From Spirogloea muscicola (taxonomy: Eukaryota > Streptophyta > Zygnematophyceae > Spirogloeales > Spirogloeaceae), in the NCBI GenBank assembly GCA_009602725.1, contig WELB01000003.1, positions 1,094,193-1,117,772 of the forward strand: DNA of 23,580 nucleotides, read 5' to 3'. The notes beneath the pieces were generated by a model. It was not told the origin of the DNA. It saw only the letters and a program-made list of their open reading frames with translations, and made no database searches. This document shows positions 1,947-21,100 of the stretch, in pieces. The position numbers and the translations under genes are program-made. Numbering within the stretch: position 1 is the first letter of the stretch; each line of letters opens with the position of its first letter.

Positions 1947-2706
1947 GCAATTGCATTAATTCCTAGGTTTTCAATTCGGATTGCTACTTCTCATACGTGG
2001 ATTGCTGGTCCAGGTCTACGCAGCGCCTAACGGTGCCTGTGTCACCCAAATTCCACCCGCTGCACGGCCACAAGCAGCATGCAGGAGTTCTACGCACATG
2101 ACTACACCTGCCCCACGCGTGGTGGTATAGCAGTACAGGCACCCCAAGGCATGTCGTTAAACAAGCACAGGGCAGCTGCAAGATGTCATTGAGGTTGCAG
2201 GGTCCACAACCTTGTGCACAGTGCTCCTGAATGAAAGAGACGCTTACCTGATGCCTTGTGTGTCAGCTCAGGCCTAGATGACTTCTTATGTCTATGTCAA
2301 GGAGATTTTGCTGTACTTGAATTCAGAGTCGCTTCAAATATCAAAATGAAATTGTGTCACGCAGAGGCCCATTTCATCATGCTGCGCATGTTGCGCTAAT
2401 AACAACACCCTATTTAGCGCTAAGTCAAGCTCGTTCCAGGCCAACTTGCACTGCCCCGCGTACTTGTGACTGCCAAGGGCAATAATGGCAGAGGCTGCGC
2501 GGGCAAGTTGCTACATAGACCAGCACAGCATAAGGGCCACAAGTTGCTCTGATGAAGCAACCACAGCTAGGCAGCACTCTCCCGTTCATCATTTGCTTTC
2601 ACCAAAGCTGCTGGGAATCTGCCATTCGGGGTGACAGGAGGGCTGCAGTGCCCATGCTGGTGAGCTGCCGTTTTGCACAGACTGAGTCTGCAGGCACGCT
2701 CCAATC
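1947..2706. other. Intergenic region between two convergent genes
   Basis: This holds the 3' flanks of the TPX2-like gene (plus) and the pyruvate-kinase-like gene (minus). I see no reading frame with coding character, no RNA gene and no clear poly(A) signal of the TGTAA or AATAAA kind. Base composition is near 50% GC and resembles the introns of the neighbouring genes. Confidence 0.6.
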
Positions 2707-5700
2707 TTAGCGCTCAATGTCAAGAATCTTTACCACAGCATGATCGCCAAGCTTCTGCATGACGACGACCTGGTCACCAGCCTTGATGATACCCGCTGCC
2801 TTGCCTGCACCAGCTTGCAACACACCCTCAAGCTCAGTAATGCCAGTGCGCAATAGGATGTCACTGCCTTCACAGAGGCCTTGAAAGTGGTAGGTCTTGC
2901 AACAAGGTGTTAGCAATCACAAATCACAGGACAGGGTCCATGATAGAGAGTGTTTTGGACTGTGGGCCATGTGGATTCACTCCAGGAAATGCGCACGAGA
3001 TTGAAGTGTGCAAAACATATGTCACATGGCCACTCTCCAACAAATTACGCTACTACTTGAAGCAGGCGCCTGGCCAGGTTGCTATAGAAGAGCTCCATGC
3101 TTACGACGCGAAAGCTGTGTGCCGCGATGCAGCCTTTACAACAAACATGAAAGTATAGAGCAAGGCTTCATGCACATGCAGCAAAGTTGATTCATGCGCA
3201 CCTGCATCCAAGGCGTAAGTAAGGATGCTCTCGTTGGAGCCGCCAGTGCCACTTGCATCGCTTCCGAGAGCAGAGCTCGCATAGTCAAGTCCTCCACGTA
3301 AGGAACCCGAGCCAGTCCTGGCAAGACAGATTAGGTACAGGTCACTAACTGTAAGTACAAGCTGGGGAGCTTCAAGGAGTGCCCATCGAAGAATTGGTAT
3401 AGAAGCTTCAGTCTGAAGGTTGCATGGGTATCTGCTTGCAGAGGAGCAATATGGCAGGCAGGTGCCACAATCTTTACCAATATATGGTGGATATCAGCGT
3501 TGCACCAGAGTCATGCTTATTAGCACTTCTTCCTCACCATCACGTAACTTGGAGAGGAGAGGTACCTGTTGAATGAGACAGCACTGCTGTCTTTGGCCAT
3601 TGTCAAGTCCTCAGCAGAGTCACGGTGAGCAAAGCTCCGAATCGTGGTCGATGAAGAGCCCGACTGCAAAGATTAATCGCATTAAGTGGCAAAAACCTCT
3701 GAAACTGGTCATCTAAGTCCACTTGATAAACATGGTGATGAATAGGATTGTCTTGGATCATTTGCGCCCGAAATTGTGATCATGGGCCTCATGTCGCTGT
3801 TTGAAAGACAAGTTGCTTGCGTGCACTGATCCATGTTATCATGCAAGTGGAAACAACAGTATTAAAATAGGGATTCATGATGTCTATGTAGCTGTACATC
3901 AAGTCACCTGACAATGTAACACATTTGCCATAGAGACTCACCGAGTGCCTTGGATCAGCAAGCATTGGGAAAAGCCCTCGGACAGCTAAGCATTGGTTTG
4001 CCTTGCAGGATCACGATTAAATAACAAAAGACAACCTCAGTAAAATGTGATGTCCCTATCTTTCTGAAGCAGTACTACATACAGTACTTCCGTATGCCTG
4101 ACATGACAATAGCTGCATTTACGAGGGCACAGGCGAATACAGGATGGAGACGTACACCTCAGTGAGCAGCTCAGAAGATAGCAGTGACACAAGATCAACA
4201 GTGTTTGCCAATTTAGCTTGTTCTCAAGTAGCCAATCTGTACAAACCCTACAAGAGGAATCTCAGTAAGCAAGATCGTCTCAGTGATTTGTATACATACA
4301 TGATAAGCTCCTGAGAATGTCCAGGTCAATTGATTGGTGGTCAGGCGAGGAATGACAACAACAAGCACTGGCATGCTTGGCCGATACTTGGCTATAAGCC
4401 TGCACAGAAACAGCCAGATACTAATCTTCAGGTGGCAGGCGGGTAGCAGGCACTCAGAATAAGTTGGGTACGAAGACTACACAGGTGAACATCACACAAC
4501 TGTGGGCTACTGCATGCTTGCACTCTTCAGTTCTGAAGGTACACAGAAGGGTTGAGCTTGCTTCATGCTGGACTCCTTGTCCACATGGGAGGCAGCAAGC
4601 ATGCAAACTTCTACTGGGGATAGTCTATCACCTGGGAGCCCGACCACTGGTTGTGAAGACGACAATCGTAGGTGCTCCAACTTTGGTTGCAGCTCTGACC
4701 TGCAGTTGCGTACATTCTTAGGAAAACTGTGCTTGTATAACATGCTGAATTATGAGTGATATTAGAGGGAGAGAGCGGAGTCAAGAATTTCAGATGATAG
4801 AAAGTCATCCAACACAAAGGTCCCAAGACAGAGAAGTTGTGAGATGTATGGGAAAGCAGACCGCTGATGAGGCAATTGATTCCAAATGGCTCATGGGTTC
4901 GCCCACAAATTTGACAGTCTTCTTGAAGAAAAGCTCGTGATTGTACACCTTTTCAGCCTGCAATTTCCATACAACAAATCTGACATTCCATTACTTTGTC
5001 TTATGGAGCATGAACACCTATGTATATCTGATTTACCAGTCTACTCAACAGCTTGCTCCACCGCACAGTCAACAAGCATCTATCATGTGGTTGACTTGTG
5101 GAAATCCTGGTATTCTAATATGGCTGCAGTCTTTGCCATGCCTCATCTTGAATAGACAAACCTGCACTATCAGGCAGCATCGACGAGATGCATGCTCAAT
5201 ATAGAACATGCATCAAACTCAGCATGAAAGGACTGATTAAATTCTCACCTCCTGGCAGATTCTGCGTACAGTCCCAACTGTCTCCACAGGATACAACCCC
5301 CGAAGCGTTTCAGCTCCAAGCAGAACTCCATCAGCTCCTGAAGAGGAAGGAGTGCACCAGAGGTAACAAGCTCAAGAAGGACATCAGCAAGACAGACAGT
5401 GTGCAGGGGAGAAGATCACTTGTTACAGGCAACAATCACGGTCTTCTCTGCACCTGCATAGTATATGTGGCAGCCTGACTCGTGAAAACGCACTACATAG
5501 CTTCAAGATTGGCTTCTAATGACAATCTAGGTCTTTCAAGACTAATTCATGGTCACTATCTCCACATTGCACAAGTATCTGTTTCTGCCTGTTGACTAGA
5601 ATATCATCCCTGGCATTGTGTTCATCAGATAGCACAAAGTCAAGACATCACTGCATATACCATCTAGCACAGCATTGGCGATATCTGTTGCCTCAGCTCG

Positions 5701-10627: not shown

Positions 10628-13600
10628 ATGAGGACCGTCTGCTCCATCTGCTATGACGACGCGCCCGGACGGAGCGACTTCTCCAGCCTCGCCGCCTGCG
10701 GCCACGTCTTTCACAGCCACTGGTGCTCATCTCCCGCCTCCTCACCACTGTCGCGAGCACGGAGCGCGTTTGCTCTTTGCTGCTAGTCCACCTCTCCCCC
10801 AGTCGAGGGAGCCTATGACGGATCAGTCCATCCAGTGGCTCTTTGCAGTAGACACACTCTTCAACAGAAGCAGGCCACTGCTACCTCATGAGGGGAGGTG
10901 TGATAATGCCCGAGAGACGATAAGACGGTGGCCGAAGTCTTACTGAACTTGCAGGATGTGACATGTATTGCAGCGCCTTATTGTGGTCCACCTTTTGTAT
11001 CCCGACTACACCTGACATCCAGATCAGGCCTCGTGTAGTGTCCTGCAGTGGCTGGAGTTCTGCAAAGACAAGGCCACGTGTCCGACCTGCAAGTCCACAT
11101 TCAAGCAGAAGCATGTCCAGAAGCTTTTCTTCGAAACAGCAGAGGATGAGCTGCAAGCTCCTGCAGAAGCAGATGCAGCAGCCCACAGTGCTGAGCAGGC
11201 AGGCCAACTTCCTGCCGACAGATGTGTCATACTTGTAAGTATTTCCACCACTGTAAGTATTGCACTGCAGTGCCATGGTCACCTGCATTTAACTTGGACA
11301 AATGCAAGACTCATTAAAGGCACCAACAAAGGCACAGCTCTTGCTGGCGCTCCAAACCTGACGCCGTATGCATACTGGTCGCTCTATGCCTCATGACAAC
11401 CTTCATATACATTGATTGAAGGCCCTTGAAGGCCAGGTGAAGAACCTGGAAAAGATCAGAGATGAGTCACGCAATCTCTTGAGCAAGTATGAAGAACACA
11501 ACTTGGAACTTAAAAGCCAGGTATCGGTCAAATGGCTTTGTGCAGGCTGATTGACAAAGTTGGGATTCATGTATGTAATCAAGATTGCAACTTAGAGGGC
11601 AGGCTTATGCCTTTGGAAGCGCTGTTCGAGCACTACTGAAAGTTTCAGTGTGCTATCTATATATACAGCTGATGTACTGATATATCTGCACAACTGCATA
11701 CTCCCAGCTCAATGATGCTTTGGCCAAATGGGAAGAGATAAAGCACAACTTGATGCTGTCTCAAGAGAAGCATAAGAAGGTGCAAGGGGTAAGGGCTGCT
11801 GGTCTGAGCCAAGAACATTAAAAACTGCTGCCAGCTGCTCCAGATTACACCATGTTTGTGCTTTTCATCACTTGCATATAACCAATCAATGACACTTATA
11901 GTCACATGTGTTGTCATCTAGGAATTTGACAGGTTAACGGCCAAAATCATGGAAAACCTGCTGCTAGCAGCTCCTGATCATACCATGTCTGTGCTTTTTG
12001 TGACTTGCATATGAACAATAAGCGACACTTATTGTCACATGTTTTATTATCCAGGAATTGGACAGGTTAACAGTAGAGAGACTACAGTGGCACACTCTGC
12101 AGGCCTCACTTGAAGACAAGATTGTCCAGCTTGAGAGAGTGGCCGCTGGGCAAAGACTGTAAGTTATTTCCGTCCAGTGCATTCCGACGCCTGTGGTACT
12201 TAGCACTTTGGTCCATGTAGGAGTGTATTTCGGTACAATCACAGCTGGGTTGTGCTAAAGCAAAGTTCCTAGACTGGCTTCAAGACTTTGTGATAATGGC
12301 CAGACTTCCTCTCGAATGAAATGCAGAACCCCAACTCAGAGAGTACTCGTCATGCAGGAATGAGGATGTGAACATCTCCAAGGTGGAGATTTCCAGATTG
12401 CTTGTGTCAAGCCGGAGCAGCAGAGAGGACCTAGTAGACAATCTGGCAGAATCATTGCTAGTCCGCAACAAGTACATTGCTCCTCCTTACCTTTGGCTGT
12501 CGTTGAACAAGCAAAGTACTTGTGTAACTTGTTACATTCATGCAGGCGGCCTAACTTATACAGCACAGTTTGCTTTCTGATTACAAGGCATCGTTACTGT
12601 TCAGGCAGTATAAGGTGCTATTAGTCAAGTGCGCAGAGCTGGGGTCTCGAGAAAGCTCTGCTTTGAGCAGGGCTGAGAAGACAATGCAGAGATGTCAGCG
12701 TCTCCAGGTATTGTAGCTTCCCCACATAATTAAAGCTCCTAAGATTGTGATCAGACCCTTGATTGTGTCTTACGAAGCAGGATGCTCCTTTCATGTACCA
12801 GTACTCACCTATTGCCTCAAATATGGTAAGGCTTGTGCGTAGATACTCTGATTTATGTAGGTTAGACTTGTTTTCGACTTCATGGGCCTCAACTTCAAAG
12901 CAAAGAGGGGCAAATGTCAGTGCTCAGTCCAACTGACAAATGGAGATAGGCATACATGTAGCCTGCGTCGGAAGTCTGAAAGAATTTGAAGTCAATGCTG
13001 TAACCATTGAGTTGGCTTGCACGCAGGCTAGATTGCTTGCTCTTGAGAAAGAGAAGGAGGTTGAGCATCTGAAAGTTTTGCGAGAATCTCATCAAGCAAG
13101 GCTACAACAGGAGCAGTCTACTTCTGTCAAGCTTGAAAGTTCAGCTTCACCAACAAAGGGCAGCTGGCAGCAGTGTGCAGAAAAATCAGAGCATGAAAGG
13201 CCCTCCCCATCAAGGACAGGTTCTGGAGCACGCGCACCAGCACAGGGTGAAGATCATTACAGCTTGCTAGACCCATCAGCTATTAGAGATTCTTCTGCTC
13301 CTTTAGCTAAAGTACCTCAAGATGTAGACGGTGCAGAAGCTGCAGCAAGACCTCCACACACACAGGAGAGTACAAGGGCTTCCACTGATGGCAGAACAGG
13401 ATGGGAGCCACCCTACTCAGACCACCTTGAGACGTTTCAAGAAGGAAAAGCAAGAGGCCATGATGGTTGCACATCACCTGTGCAGCAGGACAGGATGTCA
13501 ACAATCCAGGCGGCTGCAGGAGCCCAGAGCTTACTTAGGGAGGGCTCAATGGAGCCACTGTTGCAGGGTGTTGTGAATTGGCCTGAGAACTGGAATTCAG

Positions 13601-14459
13601 TGATGCACAGTAGAGAGAATGACTTAGGAAATGGGTCAATTTACAGCTCACAGAAGCGAGGGGAGGAGGACTGGTCGATGACTAGTACGACAACAACAGG
13701 CTTGCTGTTGCCCTCATCAGGGAGGAGAGGGAGTTTCTTGTCAAAAGGTCCGCTTCCCACTACATGCAAGCCTTCAGCTGCATTGTCCCAGTCTGTGCTA
13801 TGTAGACATGTCCTGACATCTTGGTGTGTCCAGCATTTCTTACACTTGTGAGGATGCAAATTTTCGTCAGGCGGCATGAGCTGTGGTGTCACGTGTAGGC
13901 AGGCCAGTTAGATTGACGTAAGAATGTGGAGAACAGGAAATGCTGTTATGCTACTGTGAATATCAACACTACTTCCAAAGCTTGGTTACATGTGCCGCAG
14001 ACAGACAGCTTTCACCGGCAGAGCTTGGCAGGGAGGGTACATTCATTGTCTCTGGCGCTGATGGACGGGGGGGAAGGCTAACGGTCCTCAAGCCTCCAAC
14101 ACTGGTAGCTTGCTTGCTCCTCGAGTGCAGCTCTTTTAACCCTTGGCCAAAGGCTGCACTAAAGAGGCAAGCAAAGGCATGTGTGTTGGGCCCGTGGGAG
14201 GGGTCCTGATCGTGGTGTCATGCATGCCCTGTGAGATCAGCTACTGCCAATCTCATGCTCAAGCGCGAATGCACAATGCAACAAGAGTCACTGACAATCT
14301 GTGGTACTGCCTCTCTTACTTCTGCAGCAGAGACAGTCCAGCCCGTTCTTTGATGTCCCCAGCATGAGGCCAGCTAAGCGGGTGCGGCCTCCTCCGCCTT
14401 GCCGATCCAGCAAGTCTGTCCTATCTGTCAAAGACTTTTTCACAAAGGGCAATCACTAA
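10628..14459 (+). CDS. TRAIP: TRAIP-like RING-H2 E3 ubiquitin ligase
   Basis: Complete gene with ten exons and a 582-aa model: 10628-10722, 11039-11234, 11422-11520, 11708-11788, 12055-12158, 12358-12471, 12605-12707, 13027-13747, 14001-14104, 14328-14459, with phases agreeing throughout. The N-terminal RING-H2 finger has all eight ligands: C5, C8, C24, H26, H29, C32, C46, C49. It is followed by KSTFKQKHVQKLFFE, as in TRAIP/NOPO proteins. Exons 3-8 encode a coiled coil (for example ALEGQVKNLEKIRDESRNLL and ARLLALEKEKEVEHLK), then a long low-complexity Ser/Gly/Glu region. The last exons carry GADGRGGRLTVLKP and a tail ending SVLSVKDFFTKGNH, whose FF motif resembles a PCNA-interacting box. In animals TRAIP acts at stalled replisomes and crosslinks, ubiquitylating the CMG helicase; that role is inferred here. 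The exon 8 donor is ambiguous: GTCCGC at 13748 is in phase but weak, while a better GTGAGG at 13848 needs a different acceptor. Confidence 0.87.
11825..12075 (+). repeat. 133-bp tandem duplication in TRAIP intron 4 / exon 5
   Basis: Two diverged copies lie head to tail, offset by exactly 133 bases at their left ends. Copy 1 runs about 11825-11942 and copy 2 about 11958-12072. Shared landmarks are ctgctgc at 11825/11958, accatgt at 11849/11982, tgacactta/cgacactta, and ag|gaatt.gacaggttaac at the end. Each copy therefore holds intron sequence, a 3' splice site and the first codons of exon 5. Copy 2 is the one that leads into an open exon. Confidence 0.88.

Positions 14460-16076: not shown

Positions 16077-16115
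<39 letters not shown>
16077..16115. repeat. (CCG)13 microsatellite upstream of the redox gene
   Basis: Thirteen uninterrupted CCG units end 100 bases before the ATG at 16216, so they probably lie in the leader or core promoter of that gene. An unresolved base (n) lies 21 bases downstream, consistent with sequencing difficulty in this tract. Confidence 0.95.
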
Positions 16116-16116
<1 letters not shown>

Positions 16117-16215
16117 CACCGCCGCCCCCGCGCCANGCCGCCGCCGTCGCCGCCGCGACCGCCGCCGTGATCAGCGGTGGCTGCGGCCCTCGGTTCTGCG
16201 GAGCCGGCACGCGCC

Positions 16216-17226
16216 ATGGGCAACTGCTGCGGAGCCCCCAGCCGCGCGCAAGTCGTTGGCGACCCCTCCCCGAGCGCCGCCGACGCCGTGCCGGCAGCGC
16301 CGCCGCCTCCATCGCTGCCGCCGGCGGAGGCCTTGCCGCCGCCGGACGCGGCGAGCCGGGCGCAGGAGAAGGAGGCGGCCGAGCGCTCCCGGCGGGCGCA
16401 CCGCGAGCTGCTCGCCACGCCCGCGCGCGACTTCCTGGTCGACCGCCGCGGCCACAAGGTCGGGCCCTTCGGCTTTTGCAGCCGCTGTTCGAATCCCAGC
16501 AGCCGCATTCTTCTTGTTGGGCACTCGATTTTTGGCCCTCGCTCAGCCGCAGGCCCGCGTTGCCTCCACGGCCTGAGACTGCCGCCGTCAGTTGTCGGAC
16601 GGTCGGCGGTGCCGCGGCGGCCAGGCCCCCAGTGAAGTTAGTACAAGAGACTGGCTGAAAGCATCCAAGTGGGAAAAACTCCATCTAGGAATACTCAGGG
16701 AATCGGCGGCTGTGCGCAGGTGAAGGTGGACCAGCTGAAGGGGAAGCCGGTGGCGCTGCTCTTCTCGGCGCAGTCCTTCCCGCCGGCGCGCGGCGCGACC
16801 GCGGCGCTGGCGGCGGCGTACGCCGAGCTGCGGGCTGCCGGGAAGCCGTTTGAGGTGGTGTACGTGTCCAACGACCCCACGCCGGCGGCGTGGCAGGAGG
16901 CGCTTGCCGCCATGCCCTGGCTCGCGCTGCCCTTTGCCGACCACGAGTCGAGCGACGCGCTGGGCGCCCGCTTCGGCGTGCGCGAGGTGCCCACGCTCGT
17001 GCTGCTGGACCGCGAGGGCGGCCTCGCCACCGCCGACGGCGTCGAGGTGCTGCGGCAGCTGGGCACCGCCGCCTACCCCTTCTCCGTGGCGCGCCTCAAG
17101 CAGCTCCGCTTCCAGCCCGCCGCCCGCAGCAGCCCCATGGCCGCTGGCCACCCTGTGGCCGCCTTTGAGGACGACGACAGCCGCTTCCGGAGAAGCGGCT
17201 ACATCGCCGCCGATCTGTCTGTGTAG
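16216..17226 (+). CDS. Nucleoredoxin/tryparedoxin-like protein lacking the CxxC site, with MGNCC start
   Basis: Two exons, 16216-16458 and 16720-17226, join in phase to give 249 aa. The start context is gccATGG. The N-terminus MGNCCGAPS fits N-myristoylation at Gly2 plus palmitoylation of Cys4/5, suggesting membrane attachment. Residues 6-60 are a Pro/Ala-rich linker. The fold spans about 70-210: DFLVDRRGHK|VKVDQLKGKPVALLFSAQ, VVYVSNDPT, MPWLALPFADHESSDALG, VREVPTLVLLD (cis-Pro172), GVEVLRQLGTAAYPF. These are the hallmarks of nucleoredoxin and tryparedoxin (thioredoxin fold). Where those proteins have SWCGPC, this one has QSFPPA (99-104), so both active-site cysteines are missing. It cannot act as a dithiol oxidoreductase; a structural or regulatory role is inferred. 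The residue 213-249 tail carries no recognised domain. The GTCGGG donor is acceptable but not strong. Confidence 0.85.
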
Positions 17227-18119: not shown

Positions 18120-21100
18120 TCACATCATCATGCCGAGCATGGAGAGGTCGTCCATAGGCACGCTGAGGCCGGCGAAATCGCCCATGTCGGCGCCGTCCTG
18201 CAGCGACGGGTGGTCCAGGTCGCCCCACAGGTCGTCCTGGCCGTCCGCCATGCCGAGGTCGTTGCCGACGAGCTCGTCCATGCCCAGCGGCATCTGCGCC
18301 GCGAGGTCCCCGAGGCCGCCGCCCATCTCCATGCCCCCCGCCGGCGGCCCGAGCTCGCCCAGGCCCGGCGGCGGTGGCATCACGTCGTCCCGCTGGCCCA
18401 AGAAAAGGTCTACCAGCTGGCCCACGCCGCCGCCGCTCCCAGCGCTGCTCTCTGCGACGGCAGTGCCCCGGCCACCGCCGCCACCACCGTTGTCCACCCG
18501 GCTGCCGCTGGCCCGTGCTCCTGCGCCGCCGGCGCCTTTGCCAAGTTGGCCCTCCAGGTCGGCAGCCAGCAGGCTGCCGTCGATGCTCATGCTGTGCGGC
18601 GACACGGGGCGCGGCCTCTGCCGCTTGCTCTTGCTCTTGCTCTTGCTCTTGTTCTTGAGCGACGAGCGCATGCCCTTGGCAGCAGACGCAGGCGGGAACA
18701 CTGGCGCACTCCGCTTTCCCCTGGGCCCGCCGCCCTGCGGCGACCCCGACGCGGCTCCACTGGTAGTGAGCCCGTCCAGCTGCTCGTGGGACGCTGATCG
18801 CCGCCGGCCACCTGAAGAAAGGCAACTTGCGGATAAGGTTTAGAATAGATCGCAGTGTAGCTAAATAAGTGGCAGCCGCTAAAATCAATAATTACAACTT
18901 ACAAAACAGTAATTGTTGAAGGGGCTTGCTCCTTAGCTTGAGCGATTTGCATGATCAGCCACTACCACTGCGCATCAGAAGCTCGTGCACAGATACGCTA
19001 TGATTAACGGAAGCAGACCAGCAGCAGGGCCTCACCTGGAGCTGGGGCAATGCCGGCGGCAGCGCCAGCGGCGGCGCTCGACGTCGGCCCGGCGTCGGCC
19101 GTCGTCAGCTGCGGCGCAGGCTGCTTCAGAGGCGCAGTAGGATGGGCTAGCTGAGCCGGGACGCCGGGCCCCCTGCCGACGGCGCCGTTGTCCAGATCGC
19201 CCACTTGCAGCTGGCACATGAGCGCCTGCCGCAGAGCGCTGCCCTCTGGCAGCATGAACCGGCCCTCCTCAAAGTCCCGCAGACGGGCGAGAGCCCGCCG
19301 GGCAAGCTGCGCCGCTGCGTGCCGTGCGCCCTTGGCACCGCCGGCCACTGCACTGCCGCTGCTGTTCCCATTGCCGCCCCGGCGGCCCTGCTCGATGATT
19401 GCACACAGCAAGTGTGCCCAGCAGTCAGACACACATGTCGTGGCCAATTAAGCAGATACTACCGAAGCTGATACTCAAAGCCCTCAATGTTACTTGACCA
19501 TTCGGACTTGCAGCCATTCCACATCCCGGTGCGGTAGTGGGAGATGAGGCCACTGCAATGTCAGCTCTGCCAGCAGGCCTAGGTAAACCCCAACTAGACC
19601 AAATAGACACTACGCACTTGTCTCAGCTACAAGTAGGCCAGCTTACCAGGCGCTTCTCATAGGCAATCTCCACAAGCTTGTACAGAGAGAGCCTCTCCCT
19701 CTCCCTGCGTGTAGTCAGAACAATTATTTTAAAGTCAGAAAGGAAGGCAGCCTAAGCATTACAGCTGCAAAGACTGATGCCACAGGAGCGTTTCTTCCTG
19801 TTTTGAATGCCAAGTCTGTTAGAGCTCCTGCCAAATGCCCGAAAGTCCCTCAGATTGACTACAGTACTTATACACAAGAACGCCTCTGCATATCAAACTC
19901 TCAGGCTGTCTCATGCTGACATGAGGGTACCATTTTGTGAGCCGAAAGAGTAGACCGAGTATGTATCGACCTAGCCATAAACCACGCTTGGACCTTGTGA
20001 TTCAATTGCCATCACTAAGTCTGCTGTATATGTTGCGCTGACAAATGCATACAGCCTTGTGGGCAAGGCTGCACCTCTCTTCCTCCTCCCGCTTGCTCTT
20101 CATCGCCTGCTCCAAGACCATCACCCTCTCCTTGTTGGCATGCACCTGTGTTCTCGCATACAGTTATTGTCAGGTAACTAACCTTGTCCTCAGGAGCTAT
20201 GCAAGCAACAGTACGGACTGAGTCAGGACATAGGAAGTTGCTACCATGATACTGCTCACACCTCAAGTCAGGACGTACCATGTCATCAAAGCTCAACCTC
20301 TGCTGTTATAGTCCTATAAGAAGATGACTGCTTTGATTTGCAATTCAGATCCTCTGCATGAGCACTGGCAAAGGCTGCCGGACCTGGTCTCGAAGCTCCT
20401 GCTGCAGGCTTCGGAGGTGCAGGCACACCTCGTCGTCCTCCCTCTGGCTCATATTTGGCTGTCGCCCAAAGTGCAACACATGTTAAATGAAGGGGGGCAA
20501 GCTAGGCTAACAGAGATCAACCAACAGACAGAAGAGCTTGAGCTCTGACGCGTCTGCACGGAGCCGTATCAAAGACCACCTGCAGGTATGTGTAGCTTAA
20601 CATGTACATATGCTGCAACACCTGTACAATTGCTATGCTGGCTAGCTTGATAGCAAGACACATTGTCATTCTGTGCTCTAAAAGTGTCGTCGAGGTTGTG
20701 GAAGCTAAGATCTCAGGTTAAGGACTCTGAAGTTTGTAGGCTTGAGTCTGATCCTAGCCTCACCCCTTCTTCAGGCAACAGGCCGATGCTTTGGAGCTCC
20801 AGCCGTATCCGCTCGTCCAGCGTCATAGCCCGGTACCGCCGCTCCCATGCCGACTGAGGGCCTCCATCCGAGTCGCCGCCGCCGCCGCCCAGACCCTCGC
20901 CCGACGTCGACACCTCCTCCCGCTCCGCGGCGCTGCCACCGGGCCTGCCCACTGCCGCTTCCTCCACCTTGGCCATGGTAGCACCCGGCTCCACACCACC
21001 TGCGACGACAATGTCGTCTGCCTCGCTCAGCTCCTCCCTTCTGTCGTGGCCCGTGTCGGCACCATCGCCATCTCTCCACTTGCGCCAGTCGCCCTGCGCC

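Follow-up and report, generated by a model that had tools for sequence, protein, structure and literature searches.

A predicted redox-dead nucleoredoxin-like protein with a dual-acylation-type start in Spirogloea muscicola

In the window analysed here, a stretch of 23,580 nucleotides from Spirogloea muscicola, a two-exon gene on the forward strand (16216-17226) encodes a protein that is well supported, as a prediction, as a redox-dead nucleoredoxin-like pseudoenzyme. The thioredoxin-type fold of the family is recognizable, both cysteines of the active site are replaced, and the protein begins with MGNCC, a candidate lipidation signal. We propose, with confidence evenly balanced for and against, that it would serve as a dually acylated, membrane-tethered adaptor that binds partners through its old substrate groove.

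The gene model and its domain

The two exons, 16216-16458 and 16720-17226, join into 750 nt encoding 249 residues with no stop or frameshift, and this is the best of the candidate gene models tested. Exon 1 (residues 1-81), placed by translation, start context, an upstream stop and the rank of its junction, contains the MGNCC start, a Pro/Ala-rich stretch, the charged stretch AQEKEAAERSRRAHRELLA and then the first domain residues, DFLVDRRGHK. Exon 2 supplies residues 82-249 and the stop codon (TAG, last base 17226); it codes for almost all of the thioredoxin-like domain, followed by an acidic C-terminal tail, and is backed by the Pfam, tryparedoxin and AlphaFold results given below. The intervening GT-AG intron (16459-16719, forward strand, phase 0, 261 nt) has the donor CACAAG/GTCGGG after 16458 and the acceptor GCGCAG/GTGAAG before 16720, and stop codons in the exon-1 frame mean that its retention would truncate the protein. 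When a family HMM built from eight relatives was applied to the 86 open GT-AG pairs, the predicted junction came first; support from this score is modest, with 94.5 bits versus 92.8 for the next pair, and the lead is small because exon 1 contributes few aligned residues. The G+C content at codon positions 1, 2 and 3 (0.815, 0.654 and 0.926 in exon 1; 0.751, 0.521 and 0.941 in exon 2) follows a coding-like pattern, with 93-94% at the third position versus 52-65% at the second.

Four lines of evidence bear out the nucleoredoxin/tryparedoxin-type thioredoxin fold. Residues 89-181 match Pfam Thioredoxin_8 (E 2.3e-16, 60.4 bits against a curated cut-off of 27), and the solved structures that match best by sequence are tryparedoxins, with E 1.3e-17 and 67.6 bits for the spliced protein and E 5.1e-17 and 65.5 bits for exon 2 alone. 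An AlphaFold model of the exon-2 part (letters contiguous in the window), computed with an alignment of 12 bacterial domains, kept the thioredoxin fold with a disordered tail (mean pLDDT 77.4, pTM 0.67), and Foldseek searches with this model again placed tryparedoxins first (6gxy_A, E 5.3e-10, TMt 0.70). The cis-proline loop, V171-P172-T173 (16987-16995, forward strand), is retained, P172 being present here as in 12/12 bacterial relatives; its cis state is inferred from the family. The original prediction also held that the C-terminal family motifs were intact, and this proved too strong: among the 37 columns conserved at 90% or more across the 12 bacterial domains, 22 are kept and 15 are changed, the latter including R189 and W203; the cis-proline, MPWLALPF and FSA stretches are kept. 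Pfam shows one domain in the 249-residue model, two family HMMs found no second thioredoxin-like domain in the six frames of the window, and the protein thus has one domain where the three-domain nucleoredoxins (NXN and NRX type I) have several.

The surroundings of the gene were also surveyed. G+C content across the window is mixed, with stretches of 45% and 73%. Of 66 stop-to-stop frames of at least 110 residues, 40 were scanned with Pfam and gave no match at 0.01, and two weak second matches of a family HMM upstream of the gene (13917-14078 and 14210-14350) looked chance-like on inspection and were rejected. A 304-residue open frame on the forward strand (12937-13848) lies where G+C is about 50% and is likely an exon by its length. 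On the reverse strand, an open frame (18123-18839) contains a basic Lys/Ser run, has a C-terminus rich in Gly, Met and Asp, and may be the final exon of a gene for a regulatory protein. Neither frame has a Pfam match. A 133-bp unit is repeated in tandem at 11820-12071, with 1.9 copies and 82% matches. Within the intron, GTTCGAATCCC (16487-16497, forward strand) resembles a tRNA B box, for which 0.16 occurrences with at most one mismatch are expected by chance; no tRNA genes were found in the window.

The former active site and the loss of CxxC among bacterial relatives

The missing CxxC motif was confirmed. Residues 99-104 (16771-16788, forward strand; codons CAG TCC TTC CCG CCG GCG) read QSFPPA and align with S/H-W-C-P-P-C of the relatives, so that SFPPA stands opposite the WCPPC of tryparedoxin, in the place of the WCxxC of active family members, and both site cysteines are replaced. 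The family site had been quoted as SWCGPC; in 12/12 bacterial domains and in the tryparedoxin fragment it is WCPPC or WCGPC, mostly the former. The only cysteines among the 249 residues are C4 and C5 of MGNCC, which leaves the domain with no thiol pair that could substitute. Around the site, W100, C101, C104, F107, P109 and V112 of the family are replaced, and F96, S97, A98, P103, R105, T108 and L111 are kept. The active-site loop is not significantly enriched in losses (six lost and four kept, versus nine lost and 18 kept elsewhere; Fisher p 0.26), which leaves room for a general drift of the domain.

A splice form or a sequence error might conceal a working CxxC. The intron does contain an in-frame but chance-like CSRC, and some CxxC after residue 6 occurs in 97 candidate GT/GC-AG forms; all 20 of those listed carry CSRC, ahead of the first strand. 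The site itself, in contrast, lies inside exon 2 with ungapped homology on both flanks, several of its codons differ, the other two reading frames give no CxxC there, and the one N close to the gene (16136) falls outside the coding sequence. We consider a concealed motif very improbable.

Relatives in bacteria provide a base rate for such losses, one that is bacterial and not eukaryotic. A scan of genome contigs gave 12 loci, of which 11 were nucleoredoxin-like and one (L012) was by look a peroxiredoxin; CxxC is present in 12 of the 13 matching domains of these 11 (L001-L011), the exception being an extra copy in L005. A survey of 288 genomes from the phylum of the L001 genome (match at or below 1e-20, up to 14 candidates scored per genome) then gave 72 relatives in 62 genomes, and the sites of all 72 were inspected (30 and 42 loci). 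Four of the 72 have no CxxC: L037 reads WDPPS, with neither cysteine, and L068, L071 and L072 have lost the first cysteine and keep the second. Three others (L084, L085 and L089) resemble more general thiol-disulfide proteins. We note that L037 (L090, 3838-4410) also has a lipoprotein-type start, and that one domain without the first cysteine forms the N-terminal part of a 682-residue frame (L091, 2831-4876, reverse strand), the middle of which we take by eye to resemble Sel1-type repeats. A link between a lipid anchor and CxxC loss in bacteria found no support: a lipobox occurs in 4 of 42 bacterial frames, and three of these have CxxC (3/40 CxxC relatives).

On a tree of 86 rows (84 bacterial domains, the window protein and a tryparedoxin fragment, with the duplicates L013, equal to L001, and L043-L047 dropped), the six rows without CxxC require six changes, of which at least four are forced by well-supported branches, and these rows cluster no more than shuffled labels do. 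Our data thus suggest that CxxC has been lost recurrently among nucleoredoxin-like folds. Elsewhere, viral contigs gave no relative with either the window protein or alignment A1; alignment A4 gave 35 loci with patterns that required YFSA(S/H)WC or (P/G)PCR-FTP and so favoured intact sites. Phage and plasmid records gave no match at 1e-5, and the single BFVD match below 0.001 is to a Sylvanvirus protein that carries the name nucleoredoxin.

The same tree bears on the possibility that the gene is relaxed or decaying, its catalysis lost and its fold drifting towards a pseudogene. The five bacterial rows without CxxC have longer end branches (0.52-1.26) than the rest (median 0.295; one-sided p 0.0005), as decay would predict, and the 15 changed columns of the window protein point the same way; its own branch of 1.47 is confounded by the deep divergence of the domains of life, and with its aberrant composition the placement of this row is untrustworthy. 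A decaying gene would not be expected, on the other hand, to retain 249 uninterrupted codons, a clear family score, a coding pattern of G+C and the cis-proline, MPWLALPF and FSA stretches, and we regard decay as unlikely.

In other enzyme families, dead paralogues act as competitors or regulators of their active relatives. The window protein could similarly bind the substrates of an active nucleoredoxin, or the active enzyme itself, and hold them at the membrane, a role compatible with a kept groove around a dead site. One bacterial arrangement is suggestive of such a pairing: in L005, a Kiritimatiellia record, a copy with VSRPC (1701-2585) sits immediately upstream of one with WCPPC (2473-3402), and their N-terminal parts are similar. 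Against this, no second family member occurs within the 8.5-10 kb around each of the other four bacterial copies that lack CxxC, and the window contains no active paralogue, since two family HMMs agree on the 16216-17226 gene only, with next-best E values of 0.044 and 0.29. We give this regulatory role little credence.

The MGNCC start and the proposed role

The predicted start at 16216 is the first ATG after an in-frame TGA (16168-16170), with G at both -3 and +4. Directly 5' of it lies a CCG triplet array (16077-16167, Tandem Repeats Finder, including the N at 16136), which is probably 5' untranslated. The first five residues, MGNCC (16216-16230, forward strand), are a candidate signal for N-myristoylation at G2 and palmitoylation at C4 and C5. 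The general myristoylation pattern permits G at position 6, and MGNCCGAP fits this pattern with two cysteines in the palmitoylation zone. In random starts of the gene's base composition, the pattern came up together with a cysteine within positions 3-5 at a rate of 0.0007, and together with two cysteines at 0.00001. These rates may be underestimates because the rest of the gene is without cysteine, and MGNCC was one of many features considered in the original prediction. Among the 620 ATGs of the window that are followed by nine open codons, three fit the pattern with a cysteine, and one, that at 16216, fits it with two. The predicted dual-acylation type of start holds at the sequence level, and we infer acylation at G2 and at C4/C5, and with it a membrane location.

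An upstream exon could nevertheless join this gene, in which case MGNCC would be internal, the anchor would vanish and the product would be a soluble redox-dead domain or a part of a larger nucleoredoxin. An AG acceptor at 16173-16174, 3' of the upstream stop and 5' of the ATG, would allow such a junction, and exon 1 is worth only about 2 bits of the family score. The position of the ATG after a stop and its context speak for the present start instead, as do the improbability of MGNCC by chance and the finding of no other family domain in the six frames of the window; a wrong 5' end thus seems a poor prospect.

Maize kinases provide a caution. In a study of these (PMC3704972), two of nine listed MGNCC starts, MGNCCAAP and MGNCCATP, were predicted to be myristoylated, whereas starts whose sixth residue is R, V or P received no such prediction. 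Position 6 is G in the window protein and A in both of these predicted maize starts; such mixed predictions mean that MGNCC alone does not settle myristoylation.

Under the adaptor model, myristate on G2 and palmitate on C4/C5 would fix the N-terminus to the membrane, and the Pro/Ala-rich stretch of about 45 residues would form a flexible tether. The thioredoxin fold might then bind a partner by the groove beside the retained cis-proline; lacking both site cysteines, it would do so without thiol exchange, and reversible palmitoylation would be the likely switch of location. The model is supported by the replacement of the site cysteines and Trp while the flanking FSA and PP-R stay, by the fold, by the confinement of cysteine to C4 and C5, by the rarity of the MGNCC start, by the precedent of TrxL1/TrxL2 discussed below and by the repeated bacterial loss of CxxC with the fold kept. 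It is weakened by the spread of losses beyond the loop, by the maize predictions and by the long branch and skewed composition of the window protein. More speculatively, we suggest that the gene may represent a eukaryotic lineage of single-domain, dually acylated pseudo-nucleoredoxins that exchanged their catalytic pair of cysteines for the lipid-anchoring pair C4/C5; this is a tentative idea that we think has some chance, well short of even, of being right. If it were true, the lineage would be a redox fold made into a palmitoylation-controlled membrane adaptor. The protein is likely a membrane-tethered addition to the few proteins of thioredoxin type that work without chemistry, and the repeated site loss in the bacterial census makes the binding target of a dead fold testable in a single-domain, two-cysteine protein.

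Comparison with known systems

The original prediction called this combination of features unusual for the family, and the claim stands in part. A dead domain of the nucleoredoxin family is already known, as the four bacterial relatives and the systems below illustrate; one that stands as a single domain and begins with a dual-acylation signal did not turn up in the literature searched, and no paper on an acylated nucleoredoxin without CxxC was found there (partial coverage, by titles and the starts of abstracts). Tryparedoxin (PDB 1o73, 6gxy, 9fov and others) is the best match by both sequence and fold, but it has a catalytic WCPPC where SFPPA is found here, and its aligned chains have no N-terminal tether. 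According to a review (PMC9030443), the N- and C-terminal domains of vertebrate NXN have no redox centre; NXN is thus similar in having same-family domains without one, but has three domains, the central one being active. Atypical sites are likewise shared with plant nucleoredoxins, of which type I has an atypical second domain and type II atypical sites according to a wheat paper (PMC8632643), but these have two or three domains, versus one domain with an MGNCC start here. Bacterial L037 resembles the window protein in its cysteine-free WDPPS site and lipoprotein-type start, and differs in that the start depends on a lipobox, not on myristoylation.

By analogy, the closest precedent is the pair TrxL1/TrxL2 of Toxoplasma gondii, microtubule inner proteins (7miz) without a canonical CXXC that are non-enzymatic in the authors' reading (PMC8144581). 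They match the family profile (4e-11 and 8.7e-9), Foldseek finds 7miz_a at 9.6e-6, and they are like the window protein in fold, in family range and in the missing canonical CXXC. They differ in lying inside microtubules and in their weak sequence similarity to the window protein (TrxL1, 0.0012; TrxL2 absent from 23 matches).
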